Below are positions 45,859 through 54,240 of a DNA stretch of 64,000 bases, one piece after another. Position numbers and translations under genes: made by a program. Every line of letters begins with the position of its first letter. The stretch's first letter is position 1. This stretch comes from Natrinema salsiterrestre (lineage in GTDB: Archaea; Halobacteriota; Halobacteria; Halobacteriales; Natrialbaceae). The notes under the pieces are model-generated. The model did no database searches, was not told the origin of the DNA, and saw only the letters and a program-made list of their open reading frames with translations. The stretch is from contig NZ_JAMQOT010000001.1 of assembly GCF_029502005.1 (NCBI RefSeq), positions 372,001 through 436,000 on the forward strand, in the 5' to 3' direction.

Positions 45859-46167
45859 CTAGAAGGCATCGAGCCCGAGCAGTTCGTTCTGGATCCGTTC
45901 GCCGACCCGGATCTCGCTGTCCGCTCGCGGGTACGAACAACACAGCAGGACGTAACCGTCGGCCGCCTGGTCGGCGGAGAGCGCCGTCCCCTCGCTGCCG
46001 TCGAGTTCACCGTCGAGCAACTCCCCGGCACACGACGTACACATCCCGTTTCGACAGGAGTGGGGGAGGTCGAGACCGGCGCGCTCGGCGGCCTCGAGGA
46101 CGTACTCGTCGGGAGCGACGTCGACTGTTTCCGTCCCGTCCTCGAAGTGAAACGTGACCTCGTACAT
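45859..46167 (-). CDS. 2Fe-2S plant-type ferredoxin
   Basis: A 102-residue ferredoxin. The cluster ligands are Cys38, Cys43, Cys46 and Cys76 in C-x4-C-x2-C-x29-C spacing (SCRNGMCTSC, then LLCC). The fold starts with VTFHFEDGTETVDV. It passes electrons to a partner oxidase or reductase. It follows the 95-residue gene with no spacing (TAG then ATG), which makes it the last gene of a three-gene cassette led by the R2lox-like protein; it is therefore the likely electron donor. Confidence 0.92.
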   Translation of the reverse strand: MYEVTFHFEDGTETVDVAPDEYVLEAAERAGLDLPHSCRNGMCTSCAGELLDGELDGSEGTALSADQAADGYVLLCCSYPRADSEIRVGERIQNELLGLDAF

Positions 46168-46455
46168 CTAGAGTCGCTGGCGGAGCTTGTACAGCTCAAG
46201 CGCCTCCAGACGCGGATCGCCCGTACCGACTTCGTCGTGCTCGAGGCTGGCACCGCTGACGCTCTCGTTGAACGACGTACTGACGCCGTCGTCGTCGAAC
46301 GTCGAGTCCATGATGTAGGCGACGTTCTCCCGGACCTCCTCGAAAGGCTGATCGAGTTCGTCGGCCGCGTCTGCGATCGCCTCGATCACCTCGTCCTCCG
46401 AGGCGGTAAACGCCGCGCCCCGGGACAGTTCGTTCAGATCGGGATCGTCAGTCAC
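46168..46455 (-). CDS. Small acidic protein of the R2lox-ferredoxin cassette, 95 aa
   Basis: A 95-residue helical, acidic protein with no motif I recognise; the middle reads EEVIEAIADAADELDQPFEEVREN and the end LEALELYKLRQRL. The start is the GTG at 46455, which overlaps the R2lox stop by 8 nt and has GGAGGTG six bases upstream; a GTG at 46464 is the alternative. Coupling on both sides suggests a subunit or chaperone for the oxidase. Confidence 0.72.
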   Translation of the reverse strand: MTDDPDLNELSRGAAFTASEDEVIEAIADAADELDQPFEEVRENVAYIMDSTFDDDGVSTSFNESVSGASLEHDEVGTGDPRLEALELYKLRQRL

Positions 46456-47494
46456 GGTCCCCACCTCCGTCGGCGGCGACGCCGCGTTGGCGCTCGTAGC
46501 GCTCCCGGTACTCCCGGAGCTCCGCGTCGATGTCCGTCTCGAGACACTCCCGATGGCGGTCGGCGACGATGCCGATGATCCTGTGGTGGTCGACGTCGAG
46601 GTCGAGCGTCTCGTTGAACTGCCCGTCGATGAGACGGCCGACGCGCATCAGGAGGTCGTCGAACTCGATCTCGAGGGGGTCGTCGACGGCGTCGGTGAAC
46701 ATGTATCCGAAGTCCGCGACCGATCCCACGTTCTCGTAGAGGACGTCCACGATCGCCTGACTGACGCCCTGAAAATCCGGTTCGCCGGCTCGTTCCTTCT
46801 CGATCAGTTCGCTCAGGGCCTCGACGCCGTGCGTGATGTGGCGTCCCTCGTCGGTGCTGATGAATTTGAAACCGTGATTCAACAGGGGCAGCGGCGCGTT
46901 CCGCGACAGTTTGTTGATCGAATAAAAGCCGCCCCGGGCGAGGAGCCCCTCCACGATCATGTGGTACACCGTCAGCGCCTTCGCGATGTCGACGGGATCC
47001 TGCGAGTGGGCCGCCCTGGCGGTCAGCTGGCCCTGCCGATCGTACACCTCGCCCAGTCCGGTCGCCTGCACGATCGGGATCCGGGCACCGCCGCGTTTCG
47101 GGTTCTGTTCGGCGAACGTGTCCCGTTCGCCCATCACCTCGTGCATGTACACGTCGAGGAACTGCGTGTGCTTGTGCTCGGTCAGCGTAAACATCGTCAT
47201 GTACATCTCCATCTCCTCGTTGTCGTCGAAACACGGTGCCCCCATGATGCGCTGGAGATGATGACTCGCGTCCTCGCCGACCGCGAACTCCCCGTCGAGA
47301 AAGCCCGAGAGCAGATAACGGAGCTGCGTCCGTTCGCCGGGCTCGAGCGACGCCCAGATCTCGCGATCCTCCTCGAAGCCGACCTCCTCGAACAGCTTCT
47401 CGACGTTCCAGGTACCGAGCTCGACCCCCTTCTGGAAGAGGTCGTACCACTTGCTCGTCGTGTCGATCCGTTCCGCCTGAAATCCGTTCGTCAT
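46448..47494 (-). CDS. R2-like ligand-binding oxidase (R2lox) candidate
   Basis: A 348-residue ferritin-like dimetal protein commonly annotated as ribonucleotide reductase small subunit. Metal ligands: Glu69, Glu106, His109, Glu182, Glu216, His219. The R2lox cross-link residues are conserved: Val72 (E-x-x-V from Glu69) and Tyr177 (Y-x4-E to Glu182). The radical Tyr of class Ia R2 (four after the first His) is Leu113. No nrdA is near. R2lox binds a long-chain fatty acid and is an oxidase; here it is followed by a small gene and a ferredoxin. The start at 47494 (MTNGFQAERID) fits the family. Confidence 0.82.
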   Translation of the reverse strand: MTNGFQAERIDTTSKWYDLFQKGVELGTWNVEKLFEEVGFEEDREIWASLEPGERTQLRYLLSGFLDGEFAVGEDASHHLQRIMGAPCFDDNEEMEMYMTMFTLTEHKHTQFLDVYMHEVMGERDTFAEQNPKRGGARIPIVQATGLGEVYDRQGQLTARAAHSQDPVDIAKALTVYHMIVEGLLARGGFYSINKLSRNAPLPLLNHGFKFISTDEGRHITHGVEALSELIEKERAGEPDFQGVSQAIVDVLYENVGSVADFGYMFTDAVDDPLEIEFDDLLMRVGRLIDGQFNETLDLDVDHHRIIGIVADRHRECLETDIDAELREYRERYERQRGVAADGGGDRD

Positions 47495-47741
47495 GATACC
47501 TCGTGAGATACCACTGATTCGGGCGTGTTGACAATGAGCGTACCTTCTCGGATGACCGGCCCTTGAAGTCGATCGATCACGGTCACGGAACGGTTTGGCC
47601 GGCCGGGATTCGGACGCCCTCCGTTTCGTGTGATCGTTGAAACCGACCCGCCATGAACACCCCCGTATAACCGGCAAAATCACAACAGTCGTTCACAATG
47701 ATCACAGTCGTATATCGGGTGCCGACGCCCGACCATCACAC

Positions 47742-48470
47742 ATGAGCACGCAACGACTCCGGCCGATCGAACAGTACTTTCCGACACAGCCGTGGCTCGA
47801 GGCGTACCGGGACGCGATCAACGCGGACGACGACTACGCGGACGAATCCGCCGGATGGGGGGTGGAGTTCGACGGCTCGTTCGTCTTCCAGATCGAGAAC
47901 GTTCCGCTCGAGACCAATACCGTCGGCGATCTGCCGCCGGAGATCGTCGCAGCGGTCGAAGAGATGCTCGCCGAGCGCTCCGAGGCGGAGATCGAATCCC
48001 TCCTCGCGGACGCACCGACGGACGTCCGCGAGAGCGTCGACTCCCGCAGCGGGCCGCTGGAAGAGCGGGTCACCGAAGAGATCCTGACGACGACGATGGC
48101 GGCTCTCCCGGATCGACTGTGGCCCGAGCTGCGGGCGGAACTGCCCGACCTCCTCGCGGCCCTGATCGCGCAACTCGAGGAGAACGTCGCCGACGGGGAC
48201 ACCGTCTACGCGTATCTGGACCTCTACGACGGTGAGTGTCGGGGCGTGGAAACGGTCACGGAGATCGACGATCTGGAGTACGGGTTTCGGCTCGTCGGGG
48301 ACTACGAGCGGTGGAAGACGCTCGTCCGCGGCGAGGGTGACGTCATCGACATGCTGATGGCCGGCGACTTCGAGATCGACGGCCACATGCAGAAGATCCT
48401 CCAGTACTCCGACGCGGCGGCCCGTCTCGGCGAGATCTCCGGGAACGTCGACTCGCGGTTTCTCTTCTGA
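47742..48470 (+). CDS. SCP-2 sterol-carrier-fold protein
   Basis: A 242-residue lipid-binding-fold protein. The C-terminal SCP2 domain is marked by LVGDYERWKTLVRGEGDVIDMLMAGDFEIDGHMQKIL. The N-terminal part is acidic and helical. It is divergent from the R2lox operon with a 247-bp shared promoter region, which suggests a joint role in lipid oxidation. The ATG at 47742 is preceded by a TATA-like GTATAT at about 47709. Confidence 0.85.
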   Translation: MSTQRLRPIEQYFPTQPWLEAYRDAINADDDYADESAGWGVEFDGSFVFQIENVPLETNTVGDLPPEIVAAVEEMLAERSEAEIESLLADAPTDVRESVDSRSGPLEERVTEEILTTTMAALPDRLWPELRAELPDLLAALIAQLEENVADGDTVYAYLDLYDGECRGVETVTEIDDLEYGFRLVGDYERWKTLVRGEGDVIDMLMAGDFEIDGHMQKILQYSDAAARLGEISGNVDSRFLF

Positions 48471-48601: not shown

Positions 48602-49219
48602 TCACTGGTCGAGAACGAGTCCGTACACCAGCCCGAGCGTGCCACCGTAAACCGTCCACGCGATAATTTCGACGAGTACCGCGGCCGGGTGGTCGGGGAC
48701 GGCCGCTGGGGTGCTCGCCGTGACTGTCAACCAGATCGGCAGCACGAAGAGGGAAACGACCACACCCACCGCGACCCCGTACGCGTTGCCGAGTCCGACC
48801 ATCGCCGTCGTAAACGCGGACCGTCGAAGCAACGGCACGAGGAGTCGCCGGAGGAGTTCGTGACGACTCGAGAGGTCCATCACTCTCGAGACGAACGCGT
48901 CTGTCGATAGCGAGGCGAGGACGTGAAACGGCAGTGCGACCAGCGTGCCGAGGGCGAACATCGCGAGCCAGCCGCCGTCCAGAGTGGATGTGCCGACGGC
49001 CGCGCCGACTCGCCTGATCGCGTCGGTGTCGTACAACTGGATCAGTAGCGCCGCCTGAAATCCCCCGGCGAGTCCGCCCGCGATGGCGGCTTCGAACCCT
49101 CGGCCGTCGATAGAGCCGATCGTCTCGAAGAGCGGCGCCAGCGCGACCCGATACGGTGGCTCGTCGGAATCCCCGTCGGAACCGACATCGGTGTCGGTGC
49201 TGGCGTCGGGATCTGCCAT
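48602..49219 (-). CDS. Membrane protein, about five helices, 205 aa, unknown
   Basis: A hydrophobic protein after an acidic N-terminal 25 residues. Helices include EAAIAGGLAGGFQAALLIQL, GGWLAMFALGTLVALPFHVLA, TAMVGLGNAYGVAVGVVVSL and VLVEIIAWTVYGGTLGLVYGL. No family recognised. The ATG at 49219 starts MADPDASTDTD. Confidence 0.72.
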   Translation of the reverse strand: MADPDASTDTDVGSDGDSDEPPYRVALAPLFETIGSIDGRGFEAAIAGGLAGGFQAALLIQLYDTDAIRRVGAAVGTSTLDGGWLAMFALGTLVALPFHVLASLSTDAFVSRVMDLSSRHELLRRLLVPLLRRSAFTTAMVGLGNAYGVAVGVVVSLFVLPIWLTVTASTPAAVPDHPAAVLVEIIAWTVYGGTLGLVYGLVLDQ

Positions 49220-49367
49220 CTGATGCCGACGTGTTCTGTGGTGGCATGCCTCAATATTGTTCCGCGTATCCACGGCCATTTATGAGACAGACTGATGTCC
49301 GTCCGATCCCGAGGCCGGGAGACGGCGTCCACCACGGCTCGACTATGATCGCGATCGAATCGACCGC

Positions 49368-50573
49368 TCAGTAGGCGCTCAGCCCGGTCAGTTCCTTGCC
49401 GACGATGAGCTTCTGGATCTCGGTGGTGCCGTCCGGAATCGTCATCACGCGAGCGTCGCGATAGTAGCGCTCCATGCGGTTCTCGAGATCGAGTCCCGCG
49501 GCGCCGAGGACCTGCAGCGCGTCGCCGGTCGCCTCGATCGAGCGCTCGCAGGCGTATCCCTTCGCGAGCGAGGAGAGCAGTCGGGCGTCGGGGTCACCGT
49601 CGACCAGGGCCTCGGCGGCACTGCGAGCGAGACCGCGGGAGGCCTCGATGGCCGCCCGGACGTCGTAGAGTTTCTCCTGGACGAGCTGGTGCTTGCCGAT
49701 CGGCTCCCCGAAGGTCTCGCGGTCCCTCGCGTACTCCAGTGCGTCCTCGAACGCCGCCCGCATGATTCCGACGGCCATGAACGCCATCCCCGTCCGCATG
49801 AACGAGAACGTGACGTTGAGCGGCGTGTGCTCGAGGAACAGCTGGCTGACGCCCTCGGGGAAGGGGACGATCTCGTGGACGTCGTACCCCTCGGCGATGG
49901 CCTCGCTGAAGATTGTCGAGAACCGGTTCCCGACCGGGATCCGGACGTCGTCGAGCACGAGCCGGCCGTTGGGCACGCCCTTCCAGCCGAGCGTGCTCAT
50001 CGGCTCCGTCTCGTACGCGGCGTTCTCGCGGTCGACCAGGAACAGGTCTCGGGCGTCCGCGGATTCGTCGCGTGCGACGACGAGGGCGACGTCGGCGATC
50101 CCCGCGTTCCCCACCCAGACCTTCTCGCCGTCGAGGACGAACTCGTCGCCGTCCCGTCTCGCGACGGTATTCGGATGTGCCGTATCGGAGCCGCCGTCCG
50201 GTTCGGTCACCGCGAGACAGCCGATACAGCGGTTGTCCTCGAGTTTCGGCAGCAGCGCCCGACGCGTCTCCTCGGACGCAAAGCGGACGAACAGCGACGG
50301 AAAGGACATCTGGAGGGCGACGTTCAGGCTCGGCCACACGCGGCTGATCTCCTCCGAGGCGATCGCGAACCGCCAGACGTCGCCGAAGTACCGATCGACG
50401 GTGTCGGGCGTGAAGCCGATCCCGAGATCGGCCAGCTCGTCGAGATAGCCCACCAGCTCGTCGCGCGCCATCGGCCCGTTCCGGTCCCGCTCGTCGACGA
50501 TCGGGTCGATCTCGTCCGCGAGGTACGCCCGGAGATCGTCGCGAAACGCCCGTTGATCGTCCGTCAGGCGCAT
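49368..50573 (-). CDS. Acyl-CoA dehydrogenase family protein
   Basis: A 401-residue FAD-dependent dehydrogenase. The CLAVTEPDGGSDTAH motif and the GEPIGKHQLVQEKL helix are typical, and the C-terminal segment is MTIPDGTTEIQKLIVGKEL. At the position of the usual catalytic Glu (Y-E-G) it has Asp, as in some sub-families with altered specificity. It would oxidise an acyl-CoA and pass electrons to ETF. It lies next to an SCP2 gene, 1 bp away. Confidence 0.9.
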   Translation of the reverse strand: MRLTDDQRAFRDDLRAYLADEIDPIVDERDRNGPMARDELVGYLDELADLGIGFTPDTVDRYFGDVWRFAIASEEISRVWPSLNVALQMSFPSLFVRFASEETRRALLPKLEDNRCIGCLAVTEPDGGSDTAHPNTVARRDGDEFVLDGEKVWVGNAGIADVALVVARDESADARDLFLVDRENAAYETEPMSTLGWKGVPNGRLVLDDVRIPVGNRFSTIFSEAIAEGYDVHEIVPFPEGVSQLFLEHTPLNVTFSFMRTGMAFMAVGIMRAAFEDALEYARDRETFGEPIGKHQLVQEKLYDVRAAIEASRGLARSAAEALVDGDPDARLLSSLAKGYACERSIEATGDALQVLGAAGLDLENRMERYYRDARVMTIPDGTTEIQKLIVGKELTGLSAY

Positions 50574-50574
50574 C

Positions 50575-51147
50575 CTATGCCTCCGCGGACACCTGCTCCG
50601 ACAGCGAGGTCATGATCGGTGCGAGGCGGGTCCCCTTGTGCACCGGCCCGTCCATCTCGTAGCGCTGCCGGATGAACCCCTGAATCGGATCGACGCTCCC
50701 GACGATCAGGCCGACGAGCGTCTCCGCCGGACCGGTGATCTCGAGCATCGCGTCGTCCAGCCGACCCGCACCGCCGCGGATCGTCCGCTCGTCCGCGTCG
50801 ACCTCGAGGTGGCCCGCCATCGGGCAGTCGTCGGCCTCGAAGCTGACGGTGATGTCGTCGTCGATTTCCTCCCGGACCTCGGGCGAGGTCTCGACGAGGA
50901 CGTGCACGCCGGCCCAGAGCAACTCCTGAAACCGGTCGGCTGTGTCGGGATTCGCGGCGACGACGGACGCGATATCCATCGTCGCCATCCGGTCGATCAC
51001 CCGACCGAACGTCTCCGGATGCGCCCGGACGAGGTCCTCGGTTCGACCCGCCAGTTCGTCGAGCAGGTCCGGCAGGTCGTCCTCGAGTTCCGCGTCGGGT
51101 TTCTCGAGCGATGCGTCGAGCCGCCGCACGAGTTCGTCGTCGGTCAT
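50575..51147 (-). CDS. SCP-2 sterol-carrier-fold protein
   Basis: A 190-residue lipid-binding-fold protein. The SCP2 pattern appears as ITGPAETLVGLIVGSVDPIQGFIRQRYEMDGPVHK, preceded by helices and a Gly-rich turn. The start at 51147 (MTDDELVRRLD) is used; the in-frame extension upstream reads TLNGTHHREP and has no support. Its stop and the next gene's ATG are 1 bp apart, so it is coupled to the acyl-CoA dehydrogenase. Confidence 0.82.
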   Translation of the reverse strand: MTDDELVRRLDASLEKPDAELEDDLPDLLDELAGRTEDLVRAHPETFGRVIDRMATMDIASVVAANPDTADRFQELLWAGVHVLVETSPEVREEIDDDITVSFEADDCPMAGHLEVDADERTIRGGAGRLDDAMLEITGPAETLVGLIVGSVDPIQGFIRQRYEMDGPVHKGTRLAPIMTSLSEQVSAEA

Positions 51148-51324
51148 GGTTCTCGGGTCGGGCTCACGGTGGTGAGTCCCGTTGAGAGTCACGACGAGAA
51201 ACTCCTCGAACAGTCTGATCCGTCGGATGCGCGGAGGTTTATAATCCGTCCCGCGAGAGCCGGCGATCCGGTATCACCTCGAGCGATGACGGCGACCGAG
51301 AAGGACTCGGTGCGGACGGTCGAT

Positions 51325-53010
51325 TCAGTCGGGTTCCGCGTCGCTCGTCACGCGCTCGCGAAGCGTCTCCTTGTCGGTCTTTGCCATGTCGGTCACCGGA
51401 ATCGACTCGAGGAAGGTCACCTCGGCTGGCATCGCGTAATCCGGGACTTCGCCCTCGAGGTGATCGACGACGTCGGCCGCAGTGAGGTCGGCGTCGGGTT
51501 CCGGCTCGATGACGACGTGGACCCGTTCGCTCCCGGGTCGCTCCGGATCGGGGACGCCGATCGTCGCGGGTCGTCTGACGCCCTCGAGCCCGTACAGGAC
51601 CTCGTCGACCGTCTCGGAGTACACCTTCAATCCGGAGACGTTGATCATGTGCTTGACGCGGTCGACGACGTAGAACCGTCCTGACGAATCGACTTTCGCG
51701 ACGTCGCCGGTGGCGACGTAGCCTTCTTCGTCGAACGGCTCCGAATCGGCGTCGAGATACCCCTTCATCCGCTGCGGACCGGTTACCAGCAGCTCGCCCT
51801 CGAGTTCCTCCGCTGCAGCCCGCTCGAGGGGTATCTCCGCACCAGTATCCACGTCGCGGAGCGCCACGTCCGTATCCGGAACGGGGACGCCGATAGTCGG
51901 ATGGTCGAAACCGGTCTCAGCCGACGAGCCCGTCAGGAGGTCGTAAACGCCGTGAACGTCGAAGTGAGTGAGCGGGGACATCTCGGAGAGGCCGTACCCC
52001 TGAGAGATGCCGGCGGCCTCGCGCTCGAACGCTGATTTCGTTTCGTTCGCCAGAGGTGCGGAGCCGGCGATGCCGAACACGCCCGCCGGCAGCTCCTCGT
52101 CGGCGAGGTCCACGAACTGGGTCGGAACGCCGAACACGACCAGCGGCTCGTGGGTCTCGATCAGGTCGCTCATTCGAGCCGTGTTCCGTGCATCCGGAAC
52201 GAGCAACACGTCGAGGGCGAGCTCGAGCAGACAGTTCGTGATCGAGTAGCCGTAGGCGTGATACATCGGCAGCGCCATCACCGCCGCCTCGCTCCCGCGT
52301 AGGAGCTCCGCGAGCTGCGACTGGACGGCGACCCCCTGCAGAGCGTTCGCCACGAGGTTTCGGTGCGTCAGCAGACACCCCTTCGGTCGGCCGGTCGTGC
52401 CGCCGGTGAAAAGCACCGTGTGAACGTCGTTCTCGGCGTCGAAATCGACGTCCGGGGGTGCTCGCTCGGTCTCCTCGAGGACCGTCGGTAGCCGCTCGGC
52501 TCCGTCGACGGTCTCGTGATCGCCCGGTGGATTCGCCGAGTAATCGTCCAGCGACGTGAGGATGACATCGCCGATATCGAGGTCAGCCGTGAGCGATCGG
52601 ACGAGTTCGCGGTGCTCGTCGCGGCCGATCAGCACCTCGGGGTCGCTCCGCTCGAGCCGGTCGCGGAGGTCTCCCTCGGCGTCGAGGAAATCGTTCGGGA
52701 CGTGAACGCCGCCGGCCCGCGAGATCGCGTTCGAGGCGACGACGAACTGGACGGACGTCGGCAGGATCGTCGCGACGCGACTCCCCTTCTCGACGCCGCG
52801 CTCGCGCAGCGCCGTCGCCAGTCGGTCGACGTCCGCCAGTACCTCCGGATAGCTGTAGCGCTCCCCGAACTGAACGAGTCCCTGCTCCGGGTACTCGCTC
52901 GCGGCGTCCTCGAGGAATCGGTGGACCGGCTGGTCGGGGTAGGGCTCGAGCGTCTCGGGAATCCCGAACCGGTCGTAGGTCTCCGACCGGAGTGGTTCGT
53001 CTCGGGGCAT
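51325..53010 (-). CDS. AMP-dependent acyl-CoA synthetase/ligase
   Basis: A 561-residue adenylate-forming enzyme. The P-loop is TVLFTGGTTGRPKGCLLTH, the A5 region QGYGLSEMSPLTH, the hinge DVAKVDSSGRFYVVDR, and the catalytic Lys is in AKTDKETLRER near the C-terminus. It activates a carboxylic acid to the CoA thioester. With the neighbouring dehydrogenase and SCP2 genes it forms a fatty-acid or branched-acid catabolic set. The ATG at 53010 starts MPRDEPLRS. Confidence 0.9.
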   Translation of the reverse strand: MPRDEPLRSETYDRFGIPETLEPYPDQPVHRFLEDAASEYPEQGLVQFGERYSYPEVLADVDRLATALRERGVEKGSRVATILPTSVQFVVASNAISRAGGVHVPNDFLDAEGDLRDRLERSDPEVLIGRDEHRELVRSLTADLDIGDVILTSLDDYSANPPGDHETVDGAERLPTVLEETERAPPDVDFDAENDVHTVLFTGGTTGRPKGCLLTHRNLVANALQGVAVQSQLAELLRGSEAAVMALPMYHAYGYSITNCLLELALDVLLVPDARNTARMSDLIETHEPLVVFGVPTQFVDLADEELPAGVFGIAGSAPLANETKSAFEREAAGISQGYGLSEMSPLTHFDVHGVYDLLTGSSAETGFDHPTIGVPVPDTDVALRDVDTGAEIPLERAAAEELEGELLVTGPQRMKGYLDADSEPFDEEGYVATGDVAKVDSSGRFYVVDRVKHMINVSGLKVYSETVDEVLYGLEGVRRPATIGVPDPERPGSERVHVVIEPEPDADLTAADVVDHLEGEVPDYAMPAEVTFLESIPVTDMAKTDKETLRERVTSDAEPD

Positions 53011-53236
53011 TCGTTCTCGATACCGCCCCGCTCCCGGTAAAACGTACTCGCTGGCATACTGGGCCGTTGACAAACGAGATCAGCGATTCGCGTCCGATGT
53101 GGGATCCGCTGTCAGCGGGTCGGGGAGTCGAATTGCGATCGAGAATCGGGGAATTCGCGAAAAGAAACCGCCTGTGCTCCGGCGAGCCACGCTCTTCGTC
53201 GTCCTCGGTCTCGCTCGGCGCACGGACGTCTGACCG

Positions 53237-53589: not shown

Positions 53590-54240
53590 TCACGGAACGA
53601 TCTGTGAGAGTAGCGTCGACTCGATTTTCCGCAGGTGGCCGCCGACCGTCCCCCCGGTACAGCCGAGTTCGTCGCCGATATCGTCGTGCGTCACCGCCCG
53701 CGGCACGTCGTAGTAGCCCATATCGACGGCGGTCTGCAGGATCTCCTGTTGGCGATCGGTGAGCTGAGAGAACAGTCGATCCGTGGCGGGTTCGTAACTC
53801 CCCGTCTTGAGGAGTTTGAGTCGGATCCCGTCCGGAACGTCGGGAATCGCCTCCTGAAAGCTTTGAACGTCGCCGATCACCGTGACGCGTAATCCCCCGC
53901 GCCGCATGAACTCCATCGGCGTATCGAATATGAACTCGAACTTCTTGAGCATACTCAACAGGCTGACGAGCCTGTCGTCGGCCTCGACGTGCATGTAGGC
54001 GTGTATGGCGTCGTCTACTCCCGAGAGCTGGTACTTGTGTACCATCGGGGATTCCTCCAGAATCGACTCGAGAGTGCCCCGGTCGCCCGAGAACTGGTAA
54101 ATCGTGACGATCGATTCGTCGGCGAGGAGATTGACGTTGTGCAGAAGTTCACGGCTGACATCCGGGCGGTTCGCGATCCGCCGATCGACGGGATGAAGTC
54201 CCGCATCATCGGGAATAATGATGCATTTCGCGTATCTCAT
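53590..54240 (-). CDS. Bacterioopsin-activator-type (HTH-10) regulator
   Basis: A 216-residue regulator. The N-terminal sensor-like domain spans about residues 1-150, and the C-terminal HTH-10 domain is LTDRQQEILQTAVDMGYYDVPRAVTHDDIGDELGCTGGTVGGHLRKI. The ATG at 54240 gives MRYAKCIIIPDDAG. An AT-rich segment just upstream, 54270-54325, likely contains its promoter. It may have regulated the decayed SDR gene or the nearby lipid genes; this is a guess from position. Confidence 0.88.
   Translation of the reverse strand: MRYAKCIIIPDDAGLHPVDRRIANRPDVSRELLHNVNLLADESIVTIYQFSGDRGTLESILEESPMVHKYQLSGVDDAIHAYMHVEADDRLVSLLSMLKKFEFIFDTPMEFMRRGGLRVTVIGDVQSFQEAIPDVPDGIRLKLLKTGSYEPATDRLFSQLTDRQQEILQTAVDMGYYDVPRAVTHDDIGDELGCTGGTVGGHLRKIESTLLSQIVP

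Follow-up and report, generated by a model that had tools for sequence, protein, structure and literature searches.

A conserved haloarchaeal gene cassette combining an R2lox-type oxidase, a new small protein family and a 2Fe-2S ferredoxin

A cassette of three genes headed by an R2lox-type oxidase is found in a stretch of 64,000 nucleotides from the haloarchaeon Natrinema salsiterrestre (contig NZ_JAMQOT010000001.1, positions 372,001 to 436,000; hereafter the window, in which positions are counted from the first letter). The genes lie on the minus strand, and encode a di-metal carboxylate oxidase of the R2lox type (46448..47494, 348 residues, ATG start), a cysteine-free partner protein (46168..46455, 95 residues, GTG start) and a plant-type 2Fe-2S ferredoxin (45859..46167, 102 residues). 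A gene for an SCP2-like lipid-binding protein of 242 residues (47742..48470, plus strand) is divergent from the R2lox gene, and an intergenic region of 247 bp (47495..47741, no strand) separates the two. The open frame of the small gene begins at GTG 46464, and would yield 98 residues from there. In most orthologs the ATG start falls at the position of GTG 46455; from this codon the product measures 95 residues, and the gene overlaps the R2lox gene by 8 nt. The ferredoxin gene abuts the small gene with a 0-nt gap. A preliminary description made from the letters of the window had located the three minus-strand genes and the plus-strand SCP2 gene correctly, and its overlap, gap and protein length hold if GTG 46455 is used.

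Alignment confirms that the product of 46448-47494(-) is of the R2lox type. Metal ligands are E69, E106, H109, E182, E216 and H219, the first being Glu, and the cross-link pair is made by V72 and Y177, in the spacings E-x-x-V (69/72) and Y-x4-E (177/182). In phmmer alignments E69/V72 coincide with E69/V72 of the G. kaustophilus (Gk) R2lox, and Y177 with Gk Y162. The spacings had been pointed out in the preliminary description, as had a Leu in place of the R2 radical Tyr. Both observations stand: Val72 and Tyr177 fall inside the metal/cross-link site of characterised R2lox proteins in the phmmer and the FastTree alignments, and alignment with NrdB and NrdF places Leu113 where these E. coli proteins carry Tyr, and most other R2lox Phe. 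All complete members of the clade to which the window protein belongs keep the six ligands as well as V72 and Y177 unchanged.

Searches against solved structures gave concordant results. R2lox proteins were retrieved first by phmmer (6qk1/4hr0, E about 1e-15), R2 subunits far below. In Foldseek, an AlphaFold model of moderate quality, built from 13 sequences (predicted local distance difference test, pLDDT, 67; predicted template modelling score, pTM, 0.72), matched R2lox structures ahead of R2c; the match at rank 50 was 2xz1. Five NCBIfam R2lox models outrank any R2 model, all below their curated cut-offs (NF006200, the best, 104 vs 194 bits), which are naming thresholds for individual equivalogs; other R2lox paralogs of the same genome likewise score under them. 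A FastTree phylogeny was computed from 48 sequences, with E. coli NrdB/NrdF as the root and hence with few outgroups; in it the window clade is monophyletic (support 0.99) inside R2lox, and the R2lox split is supported at 0.89. The window protein is 21–28% identical to the other aligned R2lox sequences.

R2lox structures, including those of acidocaldarius (6QRZ/7QBK) and S. erythraea (7QBP), are the best match of the window protein in sequence and fold, and share with it the six ligands, the Val/Tyr pair and the equivalents of Gly68 and Ala171. The ligand-channel positions Gk G68 and A171, the latter a channel-forming residue (PMC4118035), are retained in the window as G68 and A186. A186 is conserved in the clade; G68 is found in most members, and is Leu in one sub-clade. 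A difference lies at the cavity position Gk Y175, which is F190 in the window, Ala/Ser in Halocatena, and Tyr in genus g52. This cavity tyrosine is a conserved feature of R2lox, not one defining the family.

The usual annotation of the gene, beta subunit of a class I ribonucleotide reductase (RNR), has in its favour the sole domain found in the oxidase, PF00268, which scores above its cut-off (43.8 vs 33.6 bits). The radical Tyr is missing, Glu and Val occupy positions at which NrdB and NrdF carry Asp and Gln, and R2lox outscores R2 in both sequence and fold. The only large RNR subunit of the genome is the adenosylcobalamin-dependent (B12-dependent, class II) NrdJ (TIGR02504, 721 vs 400 bits), and a search of the genome for a class I nrdA, encoding the R1 partner, found none. 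The window protein thus has no R1 partner, and the nrdA gene that would have spoken against the preliminary description is absent. The RNR assignment was rejected, its probability being practically nil.

Conservation of the cassette was assessed in a class-wide sample of 391 Halobacteria genomes with profiles of the small protein and of R2lox. Genomes with the small protein and genomes with the R2lox clade form one identical set, 28 of the 391. Two additional small-protein matches (E 0.006-0.008) are at chance level, and chance agreement of the two 28-genome sets is not a realistic alternative. All searches pooled, 39 distinct copies were collected from 35 genomes. In all 39 the R2lox gene is immediately followed by the small gene, and in 36 the ferredoxin gene comes next, abutting the small gene or within a few tens of bases of it. 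Each genome with the cassette has at least one complete R2lox-small-ferredoxin trio, and no ortholog was seen that lacks both the ferredoxin and the small gene. As judged from these gene orders, the three-gene cassette is real and conserved in haloarchaea.

Distribution is patchy (orthologs in 16/125 genomes of the family), and extends over genomes named Natrinema, Natrialba, Haloglomus, Halocatena and Actinarchaeum. GTDB places the Actinarchaeum halophilum genome in one genus group with Halocatena, and the extension of the range is less than the name suggests. A sample of the phylum added no member of the clade outside Halobacteria. A single clade member was found among plasmids, in Natronococcus sp. 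AD-5.

The core of the small protein ends in DPRLEA, and features neither cysteines nor conserved histidines. No match was found in Pfam, NCBIfam or PDB. AlphaFold models the protein poorly (pLDDT 64), and a fold search with the model came back empty; relation to any solved structure is not detectable. One divergent member touches DUF7553 below cut-off, which was not counted as evidence. Roles in iron-sulfur or metallochaperone functions were rejected, as both cysteine and conserved histidine are lacking. By profile, the protein is a new family, which throughout the genomes searched was met only together with a single R2lox clade. The proposal in the preliminary description that it is a subunit is strongly supported by this conserved linkage; the complex with R2lox that it implies is a predicted one.

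Cysteines of the ferredoxin are arranged as C38-x4-C43-x2-C46-x29-C76, the plant-type CX4CX2CX~29C motif. The protein passes TIGR02008 (94.6 vs 81.15 bits), and falls short of two other cut-offs, that of the model for haloarchaeal ferredoxins (57 vs 150 bits) and that of the YfaE model NF007985 (29.7 vs 75 bits). Ferredoxins of the close clade share the C-terminal tail Q-x2-LLGLD, which could be a docking element.

The weak YfaE match calls to mind E. coli, in which an R2-fold di-metal gene is also followed by a 2Fe-2S ferredoxin gene, yfaE coming directly after nrdB with a 1-nt overlap. According to a reference title quoted in PMC8463856, YfaE is a ferredoxin serving diferric-tyrosyl radical maintenance. 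By analogy, the ferredoxin and the small protein of the cassette might be cofactor assembly or repair factors, providing electrons for metal loading, cross-linking or rescue of an oxidised centre, outside of any catalytic cycle. Because of the same gene layout this ranks as the strongest rival of a catalytic role, and the structural papers, which document as R2lox chemistry the cross-linking of the protein itself, speak for it as well. Yet the cassette ferredoxin does not reach the YfaE cut-off and fits plant-type ferredoxins best, other R2lox lineages do without such partners, and the neighbourhood of the cassette is dominated by lipid and CoA genes. The E. coli system also differs in that NrdB is a true RNR subunit working with NrdA and has no small third protein beside it. 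We regard a maintenance role as unlikely, though deserving serious thought.

Beyond the divergent SCP2-like gene the window carries, all on the minus strand, a protein of 225 residues of unknown function (48602..49279; weak DUF4235), a neighbour kept among Natrialbaceae only; an acyl-CoA dehydrogenase (49368..50573); a second SCP2-like protein of 205 residues, linked to both acyl-CoA dehydrogenase and cassette (50575..51192); an AMP-binding acyl-CoA synthetase (51325..53073); and, about 6 kb from R2lox, a HVO_0513_N/HTH_10 transcription regulator (53590..54240). The preliminary description was right on the cassette and the divergent SCP2 gene, and missed the acyl-CoA dehydrogenase, the second SCP2-like gene, the acyl-CoA synthetase and the regulator. 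An SCP2-like gene is found within about 2.5 kb of the cassette in 32 of the 39 copies. The window SCP2-like protein alone stays under the gathering score of PF02036 (17.2 vs 21.3 bits); its ortholog L097 passes (35.5 bits), and the profile of the family matches T. thermophilus SCP2 (2cx7, E 1e-10). Most relatives have a further SCP2-like gene (about 38-40% identical) just upstream of R2lox and co-directional with it, and in many it occupies the position of the 247-bp intergenic region. This gene, absent in the species of the window, had also been overlooked.

Full-length SCP2L (E <= 1e-75) was found in 28/391 genomes, 26 of which have the cassette. Acyl-CoA dehydrogenases beside other R2lox cassettes are 54-87% identical to that of the window, in varied arrangements; the best full-length paralog in the window genome is 32% identical. 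In genus g52 the genes R2lox-small-ferredoxin-SCP2L-SCP2(205 aa)-acyl-CoA dehydrogenase run in one direction. The SCP2(205)-acyl-CoA dehydrogenase pair is directly upstream of R2lox in G337 (SCP2-ACAD-R2lox-small, ACAD being the acyl-CoA dehydrogenase), and divergent in f8. Seven Natrialbaceae loci have aldehyde and Zn-alcohol dehydrogenase genes right after the ferredoxin, and CoA-transferase III is found in the neighbourhood of some Halocatena/Actinarchaeum loci. The sub-clade with Leu68 for Gly also lacks the SCP2L neighbour, which counts as a single evolutionary event.

R2lox and a relative of the HVO_0513_N/HTH_10 regulator form a divergent pair in genus g52, and the window regulator, upstream of the acyl-CoA synthetase, may therefore control the cassette. 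The same arrangement might be read as a sensor, in which R2lox and ferredoxin report oxygen or lipid state to the regulator. The regulator is 6 kb away in the window and does not adjoin the cassette in most loci, and conserved ligand-channel residues as well as the metabolic gene set favour catalysis; sensing seems highly improbable.

R2lox genes of other lineages were inspected on plasmids. No annotated ferredoxin adjoins those on haloarchaeal, mycobacterial, Streptomyces and Geobacillus plasmids. Many are near acyl-CoA synthetases, acyl-CoA dehydrogenases, or alcohol/aldehyde dehydrogenases. Downstream of the mycobacterial R2lox, on the Mycobacterium intracellulare plasmid pMyong1, lie a hypothetical gene (L123 6059-6469) that matches PF02036, the SCP2 family, weakly (18.8 vs 21.3 bits), hinting at an SCP2 link outside archaea, and a gene for a fatty acid-CoA ligase. 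Since plasmid R2lox genes lack the ferredoxin, yet are near lipid genes, the lipid link is, on the evidence of gene neighbourhoods, general to R2lox, and the ferredoxin and the small protein mark the window clade. Among the R2lox genes examined, an obligate small partner and a dedicated ferredoxin were found in this clade only.

The genome of the window has three more paralogs, all with the V/Y pair: L112 (C11:~609600), L113 (C11:~23300) and L114 (C25:~126000). The C25 paralog is part of an operon-like run with CoA-transferase III, acyl-CoA synthetase and acyl-CoA dehydrogenase genes, just upstream of which are genes for enoyl-CoA hydratase and 3-hydroxyacyl-CoA dehydrogenase. In Haloferax mediterranei pHME505 (L122 5929-11551) an R2lox-like gene heads a cluster that also encodes acyl carrier protein (ACP), beta-ketoacyl synthase, holo-ACP synthase, malonyltransferase and FabG; an ACP-type cluster for fatty acids or polyketides is unusual in an archaeon. 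A Streptomyces plasmid R2lox-like protein (L121 4851-5840) keeps the ligands, has the cross-link residues changed (Val to Gly, Tyr to Phe), and is encoded in a biosynthetic-looking neighbourhood. Within the clade, the second copies L098 and L100 (genomes G168 and G191) carry Leu68, have no ferredoxin, and sit beside CobN-like, chelatase-like and cobalt-transporter-like genes.

Plant stearoyl-ACP desaturase (2xz1, at rank 50 of the fold search), a ferritin-like di-metal lipid oxidase, is fed by a plant-type 2Fe-2S ferredoxin; it belongs to a different subfamily, has no cross-link pair, and the genes are separate. Bacterial multicomponent di-iron monooxygenases, such as soluble methane monooxygenase, similarly combine a di-metal carboxylate oxygenase, an iron-sulfur carrier and a small non-redox protein. 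They differ in hydroxylase family and quaternary structure, and the cassette has no FAD reductase; neither the hydroxylase domain of bacterial multicomponent monooxygenases nor a FAD/2Fe-2S reductase was found in it. In AibH2-like Mn/Fe monooxygenases of the amidohydrolase fold a Mn/Fe-type oxygenase is also encoded beside a dedicated small iron-sulfur protein; the fold is unrelated, and the donor is a Rieske protein, as opposed to the plant-type ferredoxin found here (PMC10401708). Dedicated small iron-sulfur donors beside di-metal monooxygenases are a recognised pattern (PMC10401708). R2lox proteins perform two-electron oxidations and bind a fatty acid near the Mn/Fe site, and their physiological function is given as unknown (PMC6060897, PMC4118035); no electron donor was found named in these two papers. 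In 2024, GkR2loxI was reported to hydroxylate alkanes when crude lysate was supplied with NADH, host thioredoxin or ferredoxin systems being suggested as helpers (PMC10867098).

The sequences show the R2lox site and the partner genes, and that these genes are conserved and linked to genes of the acyl-CoA and SCP2 kinds. From this we infer electron transfer, complex formation, lipid binding, a substrate, a product and the cross-link, in the following scheme. The R2lox protein would bind a Mn/Fe or Fe/Fe pair. The Tyr177-Val72 ether link would be formed once, on first oxygen activation, leaving a resting M(III)Fe(III) centre, and the cross-linked enzyme would then need two external electrons at each turnover. 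Given this need, a dedicated ferredoxin is the natural source, as has been proposed for other di-metal monooxygenases with an iron-sulfur protein encoded next to them (PMC10401708): it would re-reduce the M(III)Fe(III) centre, and allow turnover in two-electron hydroxylation or desaturation. The small protein might dock on R2lox as an obligate adaptor or coupling subunit, controlling access of substrate or ferredoxin. One or more SCP2-like proteins would hand lipid to R2lox, and acyl-CoA synthetase, acyl-CoA dehydrogenase and, in some clades, alcohol/aldehyde dehydrogenases or CoA-transferase would serve in substrate activation or product degradation. The locus would accordingly be a ferredoxin-fed multicomponent hydroxylase/desaturase, based on R2lox, of a long-chain lipid, fatty acid, acyl-CoA or hydrocarbon, a reading to which we assign a probability of roughly one half.

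Several observations weigh against a ferredoxin-fed lipid oxygenase. The second copies in G168, G191 and G337 (L098, L100, L106) have no adjacent ferredoxin, and no electron carrier was found beside any of the three. The cassette includes no reductase gene, and there is no dedicated ferredoxin reductase there. R2lox genes of other lineages are not next to a ferredoxin, and a dedicated one is no general need. At the cavity position whose Tyr has been proposed to take part in substrate oxidation, the window clade has Phe, Ala or Ser. SCP2L occurs in 2 of its 28 genomes without the cassette, and the acyl-CoA dehydrogenase ortholog was found in 26/292 genomes, 17 with the cassette and the others without it. 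Two proposals of the preliminary description are to be qualified accordingly: the ferredoxin as electron donor is strongly supported by conserved linkage, and qualified by the three second copies, the transfer itself being a prediction; delivery of lipid by SCP2 is favoured by a linkage recurring in different arrangements, and tempered by SCP2 genes found without the cassette, lipid binding being presumed.

The ferredoxin-less copies also bear on a narrower view, that R2lox and the constantly associated small protein make the functional unit on their own, and that the ferredoxin works for general metabolism or for a lipid enzyme encoded nearby, the link being one of co-regulation only. Ferredoxin genes close to the small gene in nearly all copies and present in every genome, and lipid genes that vary while R2lox, small protein and ferredoxin stay together, argue against it; we hold this view to be rather improbable, more so than a role in cofactor maintenance.

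As an oxygenase, the R2lox of the cassette belongs to a type already known; its three-gene setting and the family of the small protein are the new variation. No description of an R2lox-ferredoxin-SCP2 operon was found in the literature, most subscription papers being outside the search, and the preliminary description of the cassette as novel agrees with this. The ferredoxin-fed oxygenase proposed here could represent an undescribed haloarchaeal class, in which an R2lox monooxygenase/desaturase works with a dedicated ferredoxin and with an obligate subunit from a new family, and SCP2 brings in the substrate, a long-chain acyl, isoprenoid or hydrocarbon compound; this fuller version is tentative, and slightly less probable than the general reading. 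The conserved linkage suggests how the R2lox family may be powered and on what substrates it may act. A natural operon makes questions on reductant, turnover and substrate of R2lox testable in archaea and, if the proposal is true, the physiological electron donor and the substrate class of an R2lox would be identified.

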